Source: a virus
DNA: 60,005 nucleotides
Reading direction: 5' to 3' (one strand)
Virus record (IMG/VR): IMGVR_UViG_3300042301_001108
Location: 1 to 60,005 of that record
The stretch's first letter is position 1, and each line of letters begins with the position of its first letter. Below are positions 9,925 through 54,921 of the stretch, in pieces. A model generated the notes under the pieces. The model did not search any database. It was given only the letters and a program-made list of their open reading frames with translations, and was not told where the DNA came from. A program made the position numbers and the translations under genes.

Positions 9925-10208
9925 TACTGCTCCACTGTTAATGCTTGCCAGGTATTACCCCAGTCTTGCTTTGTTTTGTGTCTATTAAATTCTCTTGAGA
10001 TGTCACCCTGTTCAATATAAATACCTCCCCATACTCCAGTTTCTTTACCAGAAACTCCAGATGCGAAACATATTTTTCTCACAGGACACTCCCTACAAAT
10101 CTTATCTACTAAAAATCTTGACTCAACGTCTTCTTCATATGTGTCAAAGAAATCATTTGTATCTTCTCCAAGGCATGCAGCTTTGTTTTTCCAACTATCA
10201 TTTTGCAT
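9924..10208 (-). CDS. WhiB-family iron-sulfur transcription regulator
   Basis: 94 residues. Four Fe-S ligands Cys12, Cys38, Cys41 and Cys47 (C...C-x2-C-x5-C) and the GVWGG turn (58-62) are diagnostic of WhiB proteins, which occur only in actinobacteria and their phages. They bind the principal sigma factor region 4 and change promoter choice; phage copies (such as TM4 WhiB) can interfere with host WhiB2 and cause superinfection exclusion. The last about 25 residues are less basic than in DNA-binding hosts. Confidence 0.93.
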   Translation of the reverse strand: MQNDSWKNKAACLGEDTNDFFDTYEEDVESRFLVDKICRECPVRKICFASGVSGKETGVWGGIYIEQGDISREFNRHKTKQDWGNTWQALTVEQ

Positions 10209-44836: not shown

Positions 44837-45589
44837 TTAAACCTCTTCCAAGCTTACAGAAACATCCCACATATCAAAATTATTTCCACCACGCTTTACG
44901 ATTGAGTATGAAAAGCTTGAAATATACATCTGTCTAGCATCAGTATATTCTGCTAAATGGGTTCTTGCTGCATCGTCATCTCCAAAATTATTGTATTTGT
45001 CGTAAGATAGCAGCACCCAGAAAGGTCCTTTGTGGTTTTCATACCAATCTAGCATCTCTCCGCCACCTGCACCACCGTCAACAGTGTACTGTTGGTCTGC
45101 AACATATCTAGATCCTGAAGGAGATATTACCCTAGACTGATCTGGAGTAATTGGATTATTATCGTCGTCAACGACCTTGGATCTTTCTATATCTGGTAAT
45201 CCATTTAATTGAGAAAAGTCTGGCCTGTTTTTAAAACTTCTTGATGGTAGCATATCCCAGCTAGTGCTAATTGTTAGCTTATCTGCAATGTGGTATGAAC
45301 GCATGGTTCCATTTGCCATTCTTTGTCTTTGTTCAATTCTTTCTGTAGATACCTCTAGGGATGATCTGTTGTGATCAGATAATATTAAGAAGGCATCGTT
45401 TTGATTTGCACCAGATCTTCCACTTAGGCTAGATCCAATTTCGTATCCAACAGGCATAAGTCTTTCACCAACAATTGTTGGAGCTGCTTCCGACCAAAGC
45501 ATTGCCTGTGGTCTTTTCCAGGTTTTCCTACCCTTAATGGGTGGAGTTGCTGAACCGTTACCATAGATATAGTTTGAGGATGCTGACAC
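44837..45589 (-). CDS. Tail protein (distal-tail-like)
   Basis: 250 residues; GTG start shares a base with the tape measure stop. RPQAMLWSEAAP, LMPVGYEIGSSLSGRS, then LEVSTERIEQRQRMANGTMRSYHI. Position right after the tape measure is that of distal tail or baseplate-hub proteins. Beta-rich. Confidence 0.68.
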   Translation of the reverse strand: MSASSNYIYGNGSATPPIKGRKTWKRPQAMLWSEAAPTIVGERLMPVGYEIGSSLSGRSGANQNDAFLILSDHNRSSLEVSTERIEQRQRMANGTMRSYHIADKLTISTSWDMLPSRSFKNRPDFSQLNGLPDIERSKVVDDDNNPITPDQSRVISPSGSRYVADQQYTVDGGAGGGEMLDWYENHKGPFWVLLSYDKYNNFGDDDAARTHLAEYTDARQMYISSFSYSIVKRGGNNFDMWDVSVSLEEV

Positions 45590-48500
45590 TATCTAATCAC
45601 CTGTCCTCTCACTCTTTGTGATTCAATTCCTTGTAGTTTTCTCATTACTACATTAGCTATTTGGTCTGGGGTAGAGTTAGTACCCTCAACATTTACACTC
45701 AAGCTATAATTATACACTGAATTGTCCAAGTTTGGAGAACTATTTTCTTGTCTAGGCTGTTTTCTAATTTCATTAGAAAGGTTAAAGGATCCTTCTTTTT
45801 GTGGTAAGTTAAATCCTGGTTTTGTAAATTCTGGTAATGGTCTTAGATTAAAGCTCGGCTCGTCTATTACTTGTGGCATAGGATATGGTATTTGCATTCC
45901 AGGCTTACCAAATGATGGCTTAGGCATAGCAACTCTAACAGGTCTTCTTGCAGCTGATGGTAGCTGTCCTCTGTTTATAGAGTTTAAGAAGCCTCTACCA
46001 AATTTCTTAACAGAAGATGCTTGAACCACAAACTCTCCATCAGACAGGTTTGCTGGAATTGAATCTGAGGTTGAACTTCCTGGACCAGAAACATATCCAC
46101 CACCAGCCCTATTTGTGGTTCTGGTGTTTGCTTCTCCAGCTTTAAATCCACTCCAAAAACCATCCCAAAGATTTTTGGCCCAGTTTCCAATTCTACCTGG
46201 CAAGCCCACGATCCAAAGTCTAAGCTCTTCTGCTTTTGCTGCTAACCAGTTAGAGAGGCTTGGCATACCATTTGTCCAAATGTTTTTTGCCCAGCTAACC
46301 ACTCCATTAGGAAGGGTTACTGTCAACCAAGTTTTAAAGTTATTCCACTGCGTAGTTAGCCAAGCTCCAATGTTTTGCACTCCATTCCAAATTGACGCTC
46401 CCCAAGAAAGAATACCTGCTGGCAGCGTGACGGTCATCCAGGTTTGGAAGTTTGTCCACTGTGTAGACAACCAAGCCCCCACGTCTTGCATTCCTTGCCA
46501 TATACTAGCACCCCAAGCTAGTATGCCTGCAGGAAGAGTTACAGTCATCCAGGTCATAAAGTTTGTCCACTGTGTAGACAACCAAGCCCCCACGTCTTGC
46601 ATTCCTTGCCATATACTAGCACCCCAAGCTAGTATGCCTGCAGGAAGGTCTGTGGTCATCCAAGTTTGGAAGTTTGTCCATTGCGTCGCAAGCCATTCTC
46701 CAATATTTTGTATATGTCCCCAAAGCTCTCCAGCTGCAATTCCAAGGTTAGTAGGCAGGTTTGAGAACCAAGTCGAAATGTTAGTCCATTGTTGAGCTAG
46801 CCATGGTCCAATATTTTGTATTCTAGACCAGAGGTTTTGTCCACCCTGAGAAAGATCTGAACCAACTTGACTAAACCAATCTGAAACTGCAGTTGCTGCA
46901 TTTCCAAACGCTTGTTGGGTTTGTTTTGCTAAGTCTTCTCCCCACTTAACTGGATCTTCTTGTAGGCTGTTCCAACCGCCCATAACTCCATCCCACCAAT
47001 TAGAAACATTTGTGCCAGCTTCACCAAACCAAGCTCCTACGTCATTTGCTTTTTGTCCAATCCAATCCCCTGCATCTCCAACGGCACTTCCAATATTGTC
47101 AAATACACCTTGGAACCAGCTACCAACATCATTGAGGAAGGAACCAATTGTGCTATCCCACCACGGACCAACTGTAGAATCGTACCAGCTAGTAATTCCT
47201 GCCCAAATGTCAGACAGCCCTTGGCCGATAGCACCCAGCCACTTGCCACCAGTCTCATCCCAAAGCTTTCCAAGAGGCTGTAGTATTAGTGTATCTATGA
47301 ATGAACCTATGGCCACAAAAACATTGTTGATTGGAGTTAAGAATCCGTCAACTACAGCCTGCCATTCCGCTGCAAGGACAAGAAGAACGCCATTCCACCA
47401 TTGTCCAACAGAAGCTCCTTGATCTTCTAGCCAACTAAATGCCTCTGCTACGAAGTCCTTACCACCTTCAGCTGTTTCTGAACCGCTACCCTCTTGTACT
47501 TCTTTAGGTTCTGGAATTGTGTCATCACTACCTCCACCACCGCCGCCAGAACCTTGTTCTGCAACAATTGCAGCTGCGGTTCCAGCTCCTCCAACACTCT
47601 TAGTTACAGTTTCAATAGTAAGTCTTCTTGTTTGATCTTTTAATGAACGCCAGTCTCTAACAACATCCCCAGTAAGCTGCCTTGCCATATCAAGAGCGTC
47701 GTTAAACTCTCCAGCTTCAACCTTTGCTAAGTCAAGAGCTAGTTCAGCATCTTCCCACTTTCGTCTTTGAGCATCAATTGCCTCTATCTCTTCATCTTTT
47801 TGATCTTCTATAGCTTGAACAATATCCTCATTTATTTGTAGCTGATTCTCTAGTGGTTCAATTCTGTTTTCTTGAATGTCATAAATAGCATCTTCAAGCT
47901 TTTGAACCTCAACAAGAACTTCCTCTCTTTGTTCTTCTAGTTGATAAATCTGTTGAGAAATCTCAAATTGACGTTCTTCAATTTCTACCCTTGACATTCC
48001 GCTAGCTGAGCGTAAGCTTGCAATCTCAGATTCTTTTGCTGCATTAAGACTATCTTCTTGATTCTGTGCTGCTGCATCTGCTTCTGCAGCTCTCATGTCT
48101 TGCATAAGACCAGCTGCTGCACCAATGTCTCCAGAGGCAAGAGCATCTGCTAGATTAGTTTGAGCTTTTTGCTGATTAATTATTTGTTGATTAACTTTTG
48201 CAACCTGAGCTAAAGCCTTGGCTTGTTCATCATAACGTTTAGTAATTTTGTCGGCTGCATGGTCCATAAGCGTTAAGTCATTTGCAAGGTCAGAGGACTC
48301 TTCATTCAGTGCTTCAATTGGCCTATCAAACTGTATCTCAATACTTCTTTGTATGTCGTCAACCTGTTCTTGGTAAGCTTCAGTAATTCTGTTTAAAACA
48401 TCTATAGCTCTTGTAAGTTCTTTTGCTTGTTTTTCAGCTGCACGAAGTCCGTCTGCATACTTTCTTTCAACCTGTCTTTCGAGGATGTCATAGTATTCAT

Positions 48501-51500
48501 TTGCCTGGCTCTGCAATCCGTCAAAGGCATCACGAAGTCCTTCAGAAGTTTCTAGTGCCTCAAGTCTAACTAGCTTAATCTGGTTTACAAGCTCTTTCCA
48601 TTTTGCACTTCCAACCTTTGTAGATGCAAGAGCAGCAGATAGTTGAGCATCTCCAGCTACGGTTGCTGCTTCTGCTGCACTAAACCCAGCCTGCCTCAAT
48701 CCAGAATATGCAGCAATATTATTTTTAATTTCTGTTCTTTGTTTTCCTAGATCTTCAAGAGCCTGCTGGACATCACTCTTGGATCCGCCACCACCGCCAC
48801 CTCCGCCAGTAGCCCTAGCTGATCTTGCGGATGCATCGTTTTGAAGGTTTCTTAGTGTTATTAAATCGTTTATAATTTTTTGACGCTCGTCTGCACTTCC
48901 AGCCAAAGCTAGTGCTTGTGCAACAGCAGCATCTCCAACCAAGTCTATTGCTGTAGCTGCATCAAAACCTGCCTCTGTAAGAATATCGTATGCAGTTGAT
49001 TGATGCTCAAGAGCTGTGATTTGTTCTTCTAAACTAGCCCTTGCCTCTTCAACTGCAGCTGTCATAAGCTCTTGCTTTTCTTCTTCTAGTCTTAGCTCTT
49101 CTTTAAGGTCTGTTTCTTCCTTAATGAGCTCATTCATTTCTTTTCTAGCTTTTGTGGCTGCCTGTATTGTTTTTGCATCTGCCCCAGCTTCGCTAGCTCT
49201 TTCAAGAAGCTTTACAACCTTGTCTGGGATTTCAATATCTGCAGCAGCAGCATTTATAAGTAGTAGTTGATCTTCAAAGTTTGACAAACCCTTAACTTTA
49301 TCTTTAATTCCTAAGTTGTCTGCTAGGGCAGCAACTAGTTCTTTAGCTGCTGACGGATCTAGAGATTTAATTTGATTATTTAAGTTTGTTAGTTGAGCAT
49401 TAAAGTCTTCAGAGCTAATTTCTCCATCTGCAAATCCCATTTGAAGAGCTTGAAATAGTGTTGTAAATTCTCCAGCAGTTGTTTGAATTTGTGTTTTAAG
49501 CTGGCCACCACCCATCCATCCAAGAAGAGCATCTCCAAAATCATAGCTAGCAAAAGAGCTGTTGAGTCTTTCGGCTGACTCTGTTGCTAGTGATTGCATA
49601 TTGGCAAGCCCCTCTTCAGACTTAAAGTCAATAGAGGCAAACTTTAGCTCTAGATTTTCTTGTCCTGATTCAATAACAATAGCATCTATAATAGCCTTTA
49701 CTGCGTCTGCTTCAAATCCTGAAGATGAAAGCTGAACTGCCAAAGAGTTTAGAACTCGTTCTGCATCTTCTTCGCTCGCACCCTTGATAGCATCTATATT
49801 AACTTGGAAATCTTCTTTAAATTTGTCTGAGTTTAACACCATTTCTACTTGGTTCTTTTCTTCAGAAGTTTTAGCAGATGCTCCTGTAAACTTAGATGCA
49901 AAGTCAGCAGTTCTTGCAGTTACCCCAAAAATATCTGCTAAACTTTCTATCTTTTTTGAAGAAAGGTTTGCTGTGTCTCCAAGTCCATTAATTGCTTCAC
50001 TAGATTTTTGGAAAATAAGAGCAAGAGCTGTTAGTCCAGTAACTATCCATCCAACAACAGGAATCATTCTTATAAATCCTGCCGTGACTAGTTTGCCTAA
50101 TCCGACAAGGTTCATAAACATAGCAACAACATTCTTTATAACGTTGCCAAGTCCAGCCATCCCCTTAGCTCCACCCCTAAAGCCTCCACCAGCTGCGACC
50201 GCTCCCTTGGCTGGCGTTAGGCCAGGAGTTATAGTTGCTGGCATTGGCTTACCAGCAGCATCTAGGGAAACCATTCCCCCTCCCCCTCTTCTAAGAGAGT
50301 TTACTGCCGTTGCTGTTGCTTCTGCCATTTTAAGTTTTGTAAGTGTTGCTGTAGCTGCTCCCAAAGCAAACATAAGGCTAGTTACCTGCATTACTATTCC
50401 TGCAAGCTCTCCAATTTTTCCACCAAACATTGAAGCAATTCCTGTTACAGAGCTTAGCCCAATTCCAAGACCAGAAAGTCTTGCACCAAACTGATTTACC
50501 GCTTGCAGCTGCATATTTGATGCCCTGGCCAAACCGAGCTGTCTATTTTCTAGAAGCTTGGCCATCTTGCCTTGCTCTTGATACATATTTGTTTGTGGAT
50601 CAATTACTAAGTTACCGTCTGTTGTTTTTCTTCTTGCTTGAGTAGCTGCTGAGCTTGTTATTGTTGCACCAAGCTCTTCTCCAGCAATCTTAGCTTCTGG
50701 CTTTGATTCACGAGCACCAGCTGCAACCTCGTCTGCAACGTTTGTAATTTCTTTAGCTGGAGACTCTATGCCAAGACCATCTTTTACTGCTTGAACTCCC
50801 GCATTATACAAGTCTCTCATGCCCTTTGCGAAACTTCCTCTTACGCCTGCTTTCAGTTGTTCTACTTGAGCTGCTGGTATTTCTACTTTTAGATCGGCAA
50901 GTCCCGACTTGTATATTTGAACAATCCCATTTTGCAGATTGTCCTTCATGCGTTGAGCTTCTGGTGCTAAGTCTGCTGCAAAAGTTTCGTCAAACTCTGC
51001 TTGAGATCTTACTTTTGGTCTTTTACCTAGATGAGTTAGGACTGGCTGGCTTGGAAGAGTGCCTTCATCAAACATGTTGCTTGCTAGATTTTTGTAGTTT
51101 TGCTCGTTTGCCCTGTAGGTCTGTTTGTCTTGAAAGGCTTTAATTCTTCCCTGTGCTTCAACTCCACCCTTTGATCTTATTCTTTGTACTGTATTATCTT
51201 CAATGGTGGTGATTTCGGTAATAACTTCTTCTGCAGCTTGTTGAATGTCTTCGTCAAGAGCTGCAACCTTTTCACGTAATTGTCTTCTAAATATCTCTGC
51301 ATACTCTGGATCAGAAAGTCCATCAACTAGGTTTTCTAACTCTCCAGCCATTCCATCTGAAACATCTTTTGCAAGCTGAATTAGTTCTGGTCTATCTTGA
51401 AGCAAAGCTTGTACTTCTGCAGGAGTTGTTGCTCCAAGATTGCTTGCAATCTCATAAATAATAGGTGCTAAAATTTTACCTTTAGCGTCTATCAACTCTT

Positions 51501-54500
51501 GTCTAAGCATTGCTGGATCTGCTCCACCTGCTTGACCTTTTTCTCTAGCTAGGGTTCCTTTGTTAAGATCTTGGTTTGCAGTTTTAGAGTGTAAGCTTAC
51601 ATCGTTTCCGTATACAGAAATTTCTCTAAAGCTACCGCCATCGTCACCACTTTCTGGAGAAACCGATAAGTGACGACCATTGTTTTCTGAATATCCTGGT
51701 ATTCTAATTTTCTTTTTTTGGAATAGTGCAGCAATAATTCCTGGATTTTTCTTTACCGTTTCTGCATCAATAACGGCTTCACCGTTAGAAAGGTTTGCTG
51801 GAATAGCATCGTCTTTTGGACCACCTGGTCCTCTTACCATTCCACCATTAGCTAGGTTAACTGCCTGTGTAACTTTTGCTTTTTTAGGAACTGTTGGAAC
51901 AACCTTTGAATGAATAGCGTGGAACTTGCTCCAATCAACGCCAAGACCAGTCTCTAGCCTCTTGATCATTGCGTCGTAGGCTTGCACCTCTTTTGGATTT
52001 GTTAGTCCAAACCCAGCTATTGTCTGTTTTAGTGCTGGAAGAACTCTTTGAATTTCTGCAATCATTCTTTGGTGATATTGTTCTGCTGTCATTCCAGACA
52101 TTAGTCCAAGGGTAGATTCTGCAAAAGCTTTCTTAGCACCGCCTTTAATTCCAAGAAGATTAATTAGTGCTTGATCTTCCATGGATGGCAGGTCTGTCTT
52201 TAAACCTCTTTTTCCAGACGCTCTATCAAATACTCCAGCTGGTCCAACATCTGCAACTACGTTTCCAAAAACGTTTGAAGCTGACAAATCTTTATCTACA
52301 CGAAGAAGTGATGCAACCAACTGTCTAAAGTACTGCTCTTCATTAAAAATAGCTTTTGGTTCATTTTGAATAAACTTGGTGTCAAGAGCTGATTCAAGAG
52401 CAAGGAATCTTCTTTCTCTTGTTGGATCTAGTGGGTCTCTTATTACAACAATTTTTTGTTCTGGTGCCTCTAATCCATGTGCCTGTCTAGCGATTTGCGT
52501 AGCACGAATTTCTGCAAGTGCTGCTGCTTCATCCAATACTGGTTTAACGAAAACCTTTTCTCCACCTGGCTTAGAGTAAACACCACCCAATCCAAATATT
52601 GGAAAGCTGTGCCCAGATGTTTTAGATATTTGGTGACCATACTCTGTGGGTGGAACGTTTGCATAGCTACTCTTTAGCAGGTCTTGATATATTTCATCTC
52701 CGACTTCTCTGCTTTTGCTTACGCTCTTGATTGATTTTGGCATTCCAAGCATAACGCCCTTGGAAAAACCTGGTAGCTTTCCTGCAATTAAAGCCTCTAT
52801 TACTGGTGCATATTTCTTTACTTGTTCTGCAGGTATAACAGCTTCGCCATTAGAGAGTAGTGCTGGGATTGAATCTGATGTTCCAGAACCTGGTCCTGAA
52901 ATAATTCCACCCCTTGCAAAACCTTCTGCCTGTGTTGCACCACCACTCTTCATCATTCCTGGATTAAGAAGTGCAAACCTTGCTCCTGCATCTGCTGCTT
53001 GTTGATAGGCAATACGAAGTTGGTCTACAGCAGTCTTTTCTGCTGTAAACCTTTGTGTTAGTCCTGCGTGAGCTTGATCAAGAGAGGCGGCAGCTGCTGC
53101 GGCTTCTAATTGCTCCTGAGTCATGTAGCTGGTTTCATCACCAACACCCTGAGCCTGACCTGTAATTTTTAGATAGCCAAGACGAACGGTAGCAAAGAAT
53201 TTAATCATATTAGCAATACCATTATTAATTAGACCAAAGGTCATAAGGGCTATTGGTCCAATACCACCAATTACCGTAATAACAGTTGCAATTGATTTCT
53301 TAATTCCGTCAGGAAGATTGTTAAATGCCTCCAGCATTTTAGTACCAAACTCAATAATTGGTGTAGCAATTTCCAAAAACGTTTTTCCAATTGGAGCGAG
53401 TGCAAGCTTTATATTTTCTACTGCAGAAAGAAACTTGTTCATTGCAGAAGCAGCTGAGACTCCAAGCTCGCCTTCTGATAAAGCAGCAAGCTCTTCTACT
53501 GAAGATCCTGCTAGTTCAAGAACACGTGCTGCTTGAGTACCGTCTTTTGCTACGTTAGCAAACAATGTTGATAGACGTGCAAATTGGAACTTTCCAAATA
53601 ATTGCTCAATTGCTTGTGCACGATTAAGTGGATCTAGCTCATCCAAGGCATTTGCAAAGTCTACTACGACACCAGTTACGTCTCCCTGATTTGCATTAAT
53701 AATTCCTCTTAGATTTACACCAAAACCACTGAGCATTTCCCTAGCTCGTTCTGTTGGGTTAATCAAAGATGCGAGACCAGACTTTAAGGCGTTTGCACCT
53801 TCAGATGCATTAATTCCACCTTCTTTCATAGCTGCCATAAAGAAGGCTAGGTCCCTAACATCACCACCAAGAGATTTTATAACTGGGGCAACTTTAGGAA
53901 TTGCAGTAGTCATATCGTCAAGGGATATAACTGTTTGGTTTTCTACTGCGTTAAGGAAGTCAATTTCTGTTGCCAATTCAGCTGACGAAATACCAAAAGC
54001 GTTTTGCAAAGATATGGTTGTCTCTAGGGCTTTTTGTAACTCTAGCTGTCCTAGCACAGATAGCTTTAAAGCTGCTGCTGTTTGGTTTTGCAAGTCTATA
54101 CCAGCAAAACCTGCTGCTGCTGCATCTGCAGCCATGCTAAGGGAATCTGCTACTGACACACCATATGCGGTATAAGCTTTTCCAAGCTCAATGATGCTTT
54201 CCATTGCTTCTTCTGTTTCTCCAGGAGCAGTAAACAGATCGCCATAAACTTTTTTAAATTTGATTGCAGCTTTTTCCATGTCCATAAAGACACGTCCAGC
54301 TGTAATTCCAAGAGTAGCAAGTGGCAGGGTAAAACCGACCATAAGCTGTCTACCAGCCCACTGAGTATTTTTACCAAAGTTTAATAGGTTTGTAGAACCT
54401 TGCTTTATTAGTTGATTAAATAAAACTTGTTTTTGAGCAGCAATTGCAGTCTGGGTTCCCAGATCTTTCATATTCAATACTGTTGGACGAATAGCAATTG

Positions 54501-54921
54501 CTTGCATGGCTCCGCTTGCATCACGGCCCATCTTAACGTATTGTGTTTGTAGGGTCTTTACTCGCTCTATTGCAGTTTTTTCAATTGTAGACATTTCTGC
54601 AGAAAAGTTTTTTCCAAATGTCTTAGATGCTCCAGCAGCGTATCTAAAATACTGCCGTAAAGAGAACTTATTTTTTTCTAGAGAGTTTGTAAAAGTTTCT
54701 GCAGTTGTTCTTACAGTTTTTAGTTCAGCAGAAAACCCCTGAATGGCATTTACTCCATTCAGGAAGTTCCTCTGCAGATCACGTTGTGCGATTCCAGCCT
54801 GTGCACTTGATTTGGCTACAGACTGATGAAACTGTGATATTTGTCTCTGAAGTGCCTTAAGCTGGTTTAATGCCTGTGTAGTTTCAATTCCTACATTAAT
54901 ATTGGCATTAAGATCAGCCAT
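45589..54921 (-). CDS. Tape measure protein with embedded kinase-like domain
   Basis: 3110 residues. N-terminal coiled coils, then a phage-tail-type region (VGFTLPLATLGITAGRVF, 195-212; AKAYTAYG, MKEGGINASEGANALKSGL) and hydrophobic helices (530-590, 1500-1690). Residues 767-960 have kinase-like motifs: Gly-rich FGLGGVYS, Lys793 in VFVKP, Glu804, D878-x4-N883, Asp899. A motif GPG..(D)SIPA.LS.GE.V occurs three times (669-702, 1024-1058, near 2940). Repeats of 37 residues lie near 2700-2870. C-terminus binds the tail tip. Length sets tail length. Confidence 0.93.
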   Translation of the reverse strand: MADLNANINVGIETTQALNQLKALQRQISQFHQSVAKSSAQAGIAQRDLQRNFLNGVNAIQGFSAELKTVRTTAETFTNSLEKNKFSLRQYFRYAAGASKTFGKNFSAEMSTIEKTAIERVKTLQTQYVKMGRDASGAMQAIAIRPTVLNMKDLGTQTAIAAQKQVLFNQLIKQGSTNLLNFGKNTQWAGRQLMVGFTLPLATLGITAGRVFMDMEKAAIKFKKVYGDLFTAPGETEEAMESIIELGKAYTAYGVSVADSLSMAADAAAAGFAGIDLQNQTAAALKLSVLGQLELQKALETTISLQNAFGISSAELATEIDFLNAVENQTVISLDDMTTAIPKVAPVIKSLGGDVRDLAFFMAAMKEGGINASEGANALKSGLASLINPTERAREMLSGFGVNLRGIINANQGDVTGVVVDFANALDELDPLNRAQAIEQLFGKFQFARLSTLFANVAKDGTQAARVLELAGSSVEELAALSEGELGVSAASAMNKFLSAVENIKLALAPIGKTFLEIATPIIEFGTKMLEAFNNLPDGIKKSIATVITVIGGIGPIALMTFGLINNGIANMIKFFATVRLGYLKITGQAQGVGDETSYMTQEQLEAAAAAASLDQAHAGLTQRFTAEKTAVDQLRIAYQQAADAGARFALLNPGMMKSGGATQAEGFARGGIISGPGSGTSDSIPALLSNGEAVIPAEQVKKYAPVIEALIAGKLPGFSKGVMLGMPKSIKSVSKSREVGDEIYQDLLKSSYANVPPTEYGHQISKTSGHSFPIFGLGGVYSKPGGEKVFVKPVLDEAAALAEIRATQIARQAHGLEAPEQKIVVIRDPLDPTRERRFLALESALDTKFIQNEPKAIFNEEQYFRQLVASLLRVDKDLSASNVFGNVVADVGPAGVFDRASGKRGLKTDLPSMEDQALINLLGIKGGAKKAFAESTLGLMSGMTAEQYHQRMIAEIQRVLPALKQTIAGFGLTNPKEVQAYDAMIKRLETGLGVDWSKFHAIHSKVVPTVPKKAKVTQAVNLANGGMVRGPGGPKDDAIPANLSNGEAVIDAETVKKNPGIIAALFQKKKIRIPGYSENNGRHLSVSPESGDDGGSFREISVYGNDVSLHSKTANQDLNKGTLAREKGQAGGADPAMLRQELIDAKGKILAPIIYEIASNLGATTPAEVQALLQDRPELIQLAKDVSDGMAGELENLVDGLSDPEYAEIFRRQLREKVAALDEDIQQAAEEVITEITTIEDNTVQRIRSKGGVEAQGRIKAFQDKQTYRANEQNYKNLASNMFDEGTLPSQPVLTHLGKRPKVRSQAEFDETFAADLAPEAQRMKDNLQNGIVQIYKSGLADLKVEIPAAQVEQLKAGVRGSFAKGMRDLYNAGVQAVKDGLGIESPAKEITNVADEVAAGARESKPEAKIAGEELGATITSSAATQARRKTTDGNLVIDPQTNMYQEQGKMAKLLENRQLGLARASNMQLQAVNQFGARLSGLGIGLSSVTGIASMFGGKIGELAGIVMQVTSLMFALGAATATLTKLKMAEATATAVNSLRRGGGGMVSLDAAGKPMPATITPGLTPAKGAVAAGGGFRGGAKGMAGLGNVIKNVVAMFMNLVGLGKLVTAGFIRMIPVVGWIVTGLTALALIFQKSSEAINGLGDTANLSSKKIESLADIFGVTARTADFASKFTGASAKTSEEKNQVEMVLNSDKFKEDFQVNIDAIKGASEEDAERVLNSLAVQLSSSGFEADAVKAIIDAIVIESGQENLELKFASIDFKSEEGLANMQSLATESAERLNSSFASYDFGDALLGWMGGGQLKTQIQTTAGEFTTLFQALQMGFADGEISSEDFNAQLTNLNNQIKSLDPSAAKELVAALADNLGIKDKVKGLSNFEDQLLLINAAAADIEIPDKVVKLLERASEAGADAKTIQAATKARKEMNELIKEETDLKEELRLEEEKQELMTAAVEEARASLEEQITALEHQSTAYDILTEAGFDAATAIDLVGDAAVAQALALAGSADERQKIINDLITLRNLQNDASARSARATGGGGGGGGSKSDVQQALEDLGKQRTEIKNNIAAYSGLRQAGFSAAEAATVAGDAQLSAALASTKVGSAKWKELVNQIKLVRLEALETSEGLRDAFDGLQSQANEYYDILERQVERKYADGLRAAEKQAKELTRAIDVLNRITEAYQEQVDDIQRSIEIQFDRPIEALNEESSDLANDLTLMDHAADKITKRYDEQAKALAQVAKVNQQIINQQKAQTNLADALASGDIGAAAGLMQDMRAAEADAAAQNQEDSLNAAKESEIASLRSASGMSRVEIEERQFEISQQIYQLEEQREEVLVEVQKLEDAIYDIQENRIEPLENQLQINEDIVQAIEDQKDEEIEAIDAQRRKWEDAELALDLAKVEAGEFNDALDMARQLTGDVVRDWRSLKDQTRRLTIETVTKSVGGAGTAAAIVAEQGSGGGGGGSDDTIPEPKEVQEGSGSETAEGGKDFVAEAFSWLEDQGASVGQWWNGVLLVLAAEWQAVVDGFLTPINNVFVAIGSFIDTLILQPLGKLWDETGGKWLGAIGQGLSDIWAGITSWYDSTVGPWWDSTIGSFLNDVGSWFQGVFDNIGSAVGDAGDWIGQKANDVGAWFGEAGTNVSNWWDGVMGGWNSLQEDPVKWGEDLAKQTQQAFGNAATAVSDWFSQVGSDLSQGGQNLWSRIQNIGPWLAQQWTNISTWFSNLPTNLGIAAGELWGHIQNIGEWLATQWTNFQTWMTTDLPAGILAWGASIWQGMQDVGAWLSTQWTNFMTWMTVTLPAGILAWGASIWQGMQDVGAWLSTQWTNFQTWMTVTLPAGILSWGASIWNGVQNIGAWLTTQWNNFKTWLTVTLPNGVVSWAKNIWTNGMPSLSNWLAAKAEELRLWIVGLPGRIGNWAKNLWDGFWSGFKAGEANTRTTNRAGGGYVSGPGSSTSDSIPANLSDGEFVVQASSVKKFGRGFLNSINRGQLPSAARRPVRVAMPKPSFGKPGMQIPYPMPQVIDEPSFNLRPLPEFTKPGFNLPQKEGSFNLSNEIRKQPRQENSSPNLDNSVYNYSLSVNVEGTNSTPDQIANVVMRKLQGIESQRVRGQVIR
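46003..46110 (-). repeat. Third copy of the GPG-DSIPA-NGE motif in the tape measure
   Basis: GGGYVSGPGSSTSDSIPANL then SDGEFVVQASSVKKF, with glycines before it and a basic stretch behind. Copies one and two are at about 52816-52917 and 51748-51852. Confidence 0.75.
46200..46790 (-). repeat. 37-residue tandem repeats in the tape measure
   Basis: Units of the form WL.TQWTNF.TWMT..LPAGI then LAWGASIWQGMQ; about four and a half copies. The DNA from 46450 to about 46536 recurs at 46561 to about 46647, an exact direct repeat of about 87 bp at a distance of 111 bp, showing recent unequal exchange or selection. Confidence 0.8.
48640..49020 (-). repeat. Internal duplication flanking a Gly8 linker in the tape measure
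   Basis: Segments LTEAGFDAATAIDLVGDAAV and LRQAGFSAAEAATVAGDAQL, each followed by a helix, lie on either side of an eight-glycine run. Confidence 0.65.

Follow-up and report, generated by a model that had tools for sequence, protein, structure and literature searches.

The tape measure protein encoded in the stretch of viral DNA analyzed here contains a segment that is best explained, from sequence comparison and structure modelling, as a new divergent family in the kinase-like superfamily, related to HipA/PI-kinase-like domains of other virion proteins. The window examined comprises 60,005 nucleotides (positions 1 to 60,005 of IMG/VR record IMGVR_UViG_3300042301_001108). Our main reading, to which we assign a probability of roughly 0.55, is that this family retains an intact active site, would be delivered by the tail and would modify an early host target after entry. 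A narrower version, to which we give slightly less than even odds, holds that the family is confined to tape measures of actinobacteriophages and phosphorylates a host target at infection, and that the middle of the tape measure is an exchangeable slot for effectors.

The tape measure gene is an ORF of 3110 codons (45589..54921, on the minus strand like all features of the window described below). Its product matches the Pfam profile PhageMin_Tail at residues 243 to 443 (E 1.3e-28) and the PHROG tape measure families with E values down to 1.7e-86. This N-terminal core (53593..54195) is common to kinase-free tape measures as well. The presence of the core, the location of the gene within a tail module and the identity of its neighbours there all support its assignment as a tape measure gene. 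Several features indicate that the phage is an actinobacteriophage. The window carries a WhiB-family gene (10020-10193; E 3.8e-13), which is a mark of actinobacterial phages. Moreover, the DnaE-like polymerase is closest to those of Streptomyces phages of the Stanwilliamsviridae (Wakanda, 55.6%), the tape measure core is closest to that of Yaboi (36%), and the order of both tail and replication genes resembles that of the same family. The Yaboi tape measure itself gave no significant kinase match.

The kinase-like domain spans approximately residues 727 to 1010 (51892..52743), as supported by an AF2 model, by its kinase matches and by the point at which the sequence diverges from a kinase-free relative (L297). 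The original prediction assigned such a domain to residues 767 to 960. These residues do correspond to nucleotides 52042-52623, but the domain is larger than was proposed. The motifs that had been recognized by eye are all present at the residues given, namely FGLGGVYS (776), VFVKP (790), ALAEIR (801), DLSASN (878-883) and VFDRASG (897).

Conservation was assessed in an alignment of 202 copies, 103 of them distinct, with identities of ~44 to 100%. In the glycine-rich loop (IFGLGGV, residues 775 to 781, 52579..52599), G780 is invariant and G779 almost so. The putative β3 ATP-binding lysine, K793 (52543..52545), falls in a predicted strand (E64-69 of the model), and the putative αC glutamate, E804 (52510..52512), falls in a predicted helix (H73-88); both are invariant in 202 of 202 copies, in agreement with the roles first proposed for them. 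The candidate catalytic loop, D-K-D-L-S-A-S-N (residues 876 to 883, 52273..52296), includes D876, D878 and N883, all invariant in the 103 distinct sequences, wherein the last two maintain the predicted D-x4-N spacing. Residue 880, two positions beyond D878, is S in 43, G in 27, Q in 22, A in 8 and K in 2 of the sequences (102 of 103 distinct). Because K793, E804, D876, D878, N883 and D891 remain invariant down to ~44% identity, the motif set is, at the level of sequence, beyond chance.

The one catalytic assignment that did not survive this comparison is that of D899 (52225..52227) as the metal-binding aspartate. Whereas K793, D878 and N883 are strictly conserved, this position varies freely among the 103 distinct sequences (D in 29, S in 22, K in 13, Q in 13 and G in 10), and the call was wrong. 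The best candidate for a DFG-type metal aspartate is instead D891 of the ADVG segment (52249..52251), which is invariant together with G893 in 103 of 103 distinct sequences. The D891-x-G893 element lies at N883+8, beyond a short predicted β hairpin, and this spacing is tight for an aspartate of the DFG type.

An AF2 model of the domain built from 83 diverse aligned sequences has a pLDDT of 89.7 and a pTM of 0.89, with a pLDDT of about 89 in the catalytic-loop region. The order of its elements is of the kinase type. The N-lobe comprises strands E38-42, E55-58 and E64-69, helix H73-88 and strands E98-103 and E113-120, and a helical C-lobe is predicted at residues ~914 to 1005 with pLDDT values mostly above 80. 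An earlier model made from four sequences was poor (pLDDT 51.6) and was used merely as a hint; most of its Foldseek matches were of the kinase fold (VPS34, PI3K, CtkA, HipA), and SidJ was also present. With the better model, 50 of the 50 matches listed in a Foldseek search of the PDB are kinase-fold structures, including MAPKs, CDK9, PINK1, HipA and SidJ. The structure prediction proposed as a check thus returned a compact fold of kinase topology, and the segment very probably has a kinase-like fold. The central claim of a kinase-like domain within the tape measure therefore stands as regards the predicted fold and the lysine, glutamate, aspartate and asparagine set, but not as regards the role of D899 or the hinges discussed below.

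The PDB matches are nonetheless weak (best E 0.021, range 0.02-0.1; prob 0.75; TMq at most ~0.34), which suggests that the C-lobe of the domain is unusual. This weakness and the very divergent C-lobe might be expected of a pseudokinase or a nucleotide-binding structural module, in which the fold serves binding rather than phosphotransfer. Many residues outside the active site are also invariant in the 202-copy alignment, including R812, H815, R874 and S902-G903, and they suggest a strongly constrained surface, as this explanation would have it. However, pseudokinases usually lose at least one catalytic residue, whereas here no catalytic position changes in any of the 103 distinct sequences. 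We therefore regard a purely binding role as distinctly improbable, and the domain, judged from its conserved residues and modelled fold, is probably catalytically active.

Outside the standard families, proteins with a kinase-like fold often carry out other chemistry, as established for SelO and SidJ. An enzyme of this kind might AMPylate or glutamylate host proteins after entry, and the occurrence of SidJ among the structural matches is in keeping with that possibility. Yet SidJ ranks amid many ordinary kinases, and no SelO- or SidJ-specific feature was noticed, such that this alternative appears rather improbable.

Two copies of a GPG-containing motif flank the domain, as had been noted, one upstream (GPG..DSIPA.LSNGEAVI, residues 676 to 696, 52834..52896) and one downstream (GPG..DDAIPA.LSNGEAVI, residues 1031 to 1051, 51769..51831). 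Their suggested function as special hinges of the kinase was dropped. A third copy (GPG..DSIPA, residues 2946 to 2966, 46024..46086) is distant from the domain and kinase-free tape measures also carry GPG motifs, including the upstream one, which indicates that these are marks of module borders rather than kinase-specific hinges. Indeed, the general form GPG..DxIPAxLSxGEAVI is repeated at module borders in many tape measures, with or without the kinase-like domain.

Single-sequence and profile searches with the segment revealed no match in Pfam, PHROGs or PDB sequences, and the profile search proposed as a check thus recovered no family from any of the three. In particular, neither the segment nor any of 83 family members matched the HipA (PF07804) or PI3-PI4 kinase (PF00454) profile. 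Two family members and a consensus, used as tblastn queries against 50,697 phage records, returned nothing meaningful, and two pattern scans of 84,980 cellular genomes yielded no cellular copy. Full-text searches of an open literature collection, which covers few subscription papers and preprints, turned up no description of a kinase within a tape measure. The absence of the family from the searched libraries, phage records, cellular genomes and literature suggests that the family is new, within a superfamily that is itself known, and that its carrier is new as well. Relatives were found in IMG/VR, where successive scans gave overlapping counts of 4, 19, 28, 295 and 354, the last two being overlapping sets from two pattern scans. 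An HMM search of the retrieved loci, up to 80 per scan, in every reading frame identified one strong copy of the domain per locus, always in a tape measure ORF or in a piece of one at a contig end, and the tape measure core and the domain occur together in 102 distinct ORFs.

The kinase-like domain is an optional, movable cassette in the tape measures of a large group of actinobacteriophages. A scan with the tape measure core gave 583 relatives, and among the best 80 of these 7 have the domain and 73, some of them incomplete, lack it. The closest complete kinase-free tape measure among these 80 (L297) is 77% identical over residues 1 to 726, and its divergence starts after residue 726, at the beginning of the domain. 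In another tape measure (L306), the domain resides near the C terminus (residues 1904 to 2209 of 2732) with its catalytic residues retained. A quick tree was made from 155 cores, 101 with the domain and 54 complete ones without it, two groups drawn with different queries, so that their ratio is no estimate of frequency. On this tree the presence of the domain changes at least 14 times, and at least 10 of these changes are forced by supported branches, with gain, loss and exchange counted alike. The identities of core and domain to those of the tape measure in the window correlate poorly (r 0.38, self-match included). This distribution fits an effector-like module and is compatible with, but no proof of, delivery; optional tape measure modules could alternatively serve tail length or assembly.

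The same distribution bears on the view that the segment is just one of the tape measure's ordinary structural domains, in which kinase-like motifs arose by chance. Tape measures are long and evolve rapidly, and motif calls made by eye are error-prone, as the mistaken D899 call illustrates. However, a domain missing from most close tape measures and known at a second insertion position, with a high-confidence model of kinase topology and an invariant catalytic set, makes this view hardly credible.

The tape measure ORF of L153 (4014 residues) includes a HAD-type phosphatase domain at residues ~1452 to 1618, downstream of the kinase-like domain (Acid_phosphat_B, E 2.8e-16). In L078, L055, L119 and their relatives, another block, several hundred residues long, lies upstream of the kinase-like domain (tape measure residues ~600 to 1300), and such blocks may be other exchangeable modules. 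No Pfam match above the cut-off was observed for the blocks upstream of the domain in L011, L055, L057, L070, L078, L085, L119 and L122, or for the equivalent slot in seven kinase-free tape measures.

The best matches of the model among viral structure predictions (BFVD, searched with Foldseek) are virion proteins with ART or portal fusions (prob 0.99-1.00). The E values are 3.9e-5 for Onyinye gp16 and 2.5e-4 for HHTV1_13, for alignments whose matched stretch was not localized within these large targets; other top matches are an ADP-ribosyltransferase of an uncultured phage and a portal-annotated protein. Onyinye gp16 (L209:5618-9640; 1340 residues) is encoded by a Mycobacterium phage in the gene directly upstream of the terminase. 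It ends in an ART domain and matches HipA_C and PI3_PI4_kinase weakly at residues 264 to 331; its loop, SNHDPHTGNF, is followed by IDKGQ. In HHTV1_13 (L208:9436-12738), which the archaeal Haloarcula virus HHTV-1 encodes in its head module, GNRDIHGGN precedes DNG. The motifs of both proteins are consistent with a HipA/PI-kinase-like domain. In current annotations, Onyinye gp16 is solely an ADP-ribosyltransferase, and HHTV1_13, which has HExxH-like motifs besides, is hypothetical.

Five starting sequences, together with 59 sequences related to the Onyinye domain, went into a virion-kinase profile. In a profile-profile alignment, the tape measure family matches it with a score of 36.4 (P 3.4e-4), wherein the β3 lysine (K793), αC and an HGLxxP motif are in register; 20 shuffled or reversed controls scored at most 18.5. 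The virion-kinase profile can in turn be aligned with HipA of E. coli at the catalytic loop (P 1.1e-4). This finding supports common descent of the N-lobes of the tape measure domain and the virion kinase-like domains. A forced full-length hhalign alignment of the C-lobe is unreliable, and the sequence-level link is therefore claimed for the N-lobe only. A direct alignment of the tape measure family profile with HipA was out of register and was not used. Assignment of the domain as a HipA or PI kinase proper was likewise rejected, given the lack of a Pfam match and of a His at D+2.

A tape measure fills the tail tube and exits at genome ejection. Under our main reading, the domain would be carried in the tail along with the rest of the tape measure, enter the host at genome ejection and fold or refold inside. 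Host ATP would then fuel its phosphorylation, or some other modification, of an early host target, such as a defence, envelope or translation protein. ATP use, transferase activity, cell entry, the target and the benefit are what we infer for this domain. The original proposal of injection followed by modification of the host seems to us about evenly balanced. The tape measure of phage lambda meets inner-membrane proteins during injection (PMC13190303), tape measure-related effectors of actinobacterial contractile systems are reported to have exchangeable functional domains (PMC13277306), and virion-delivered kinases have been proposed for polyvalent proteins (PMC5512222). One difficulty is that a tail tube offers little room for several copies of a folded domain of ~280 residues; unfolding and refolding, or a position near the tip, could permit passage.

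Because phosphotransfer needs ATP, a kinase of the virion would act in cytoplasm, either that of the new host, as we prefer, or that of the producing cell. In the latter case it would work before or during tail assembly on the tape measure itself, a tail chaperone or a host protein; in the virion it would be a mere passenger. Both ATP and fresh tape measure are available there, packing is less of a problem if folding is needed only before assembly, and the sequence and model data fit either site of action. However, a late-acting kinase needs no fusion to a tape measure, yet all examined copies reside in one. Furthermore, the nearest structural relatives in virions are minor-capsid/ART fusions and a capsid-module protein, a type proposed to be delivered (PMC5512222). 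We consider action in the producing cell unlikely and continue to favor action in the newly infected host.

Our analysis of sequences and models suggests that, in some phages, the protein that moves through the tail into the host bears a phosphorylating enzyme. The established roles of tape measures are those of ruler, channel former and, in some cases, cell-wall cutter. If real, a kinase that is both conserved and optional would make them carriers of enzymes that act in the cytoplasm, and such a cassette would help explain the great length of some siphophage tape measures. It also offers a direct test of whether parts of tape measures reach the cytoplasm. A domain absent from Pfam and PHROGs yet present in hundreds of uncultured phage contigs would enlarge by one family the virion-borne arsenal with which phages may act against hosts or host defences.

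The closest known systems are the HipA/PI3-PI4-like domains of Onyinye gp16, prophage minor-capsid/ART fusions and HHTV1_13. These share the D-x4-N loop and, like the tape measure domain, are virion-encoded, residing in virion or capsid-module genes. They differ in being capsid-side or ART-fused rather than tape measure-borne, in carrying a His at D+2 (NHDxHxGN, then IDKGQ or DNG) that the tape measure domain lacks, and in showing no significant single-sequence similarity to it. HipA and CtkA are structural matches, and HipA has the same D-x4-N spacing (D309...N314). In contrast to these, the tape measure domain has no Pfam HipA_C match and is not encoded by a toxin-antitoxin gene, and His is absent from its commonest residues at D+2. 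Enzymatic domains known in tape measures are peptidoglycan hydrolases, for example in T5 pb2 and mycobacteriophage TM4. These, too, are catalytic modules within a tape measure, but they cut the cell wall, whereas a kinase needs ATP and would thus act in the cytoplasm. The kinases of polyvalent proteins are likewise embedded in large multidomain phage proteins, which are presumed to be delivered alongside the DNA (PMC5512222). They have lost the C-terminal subdomain and occur mainly in elements of Verrucomicrobia-Chlamydia and Bacteroidetes, whereas the tape measure domain retains a predicted helical C-lobe and occurs in actinophages; the main text of that paper makes no mention of tape measures. 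Sle1-type effectors belong to a bacterial contractile injection system rather than a siphophage, and the abstract describing them names no kinase domain, but as presented there they are, like the protein described here, tape measure-related, actinobacterial and equipped with an exchangeable functional domain (PMC13277306).
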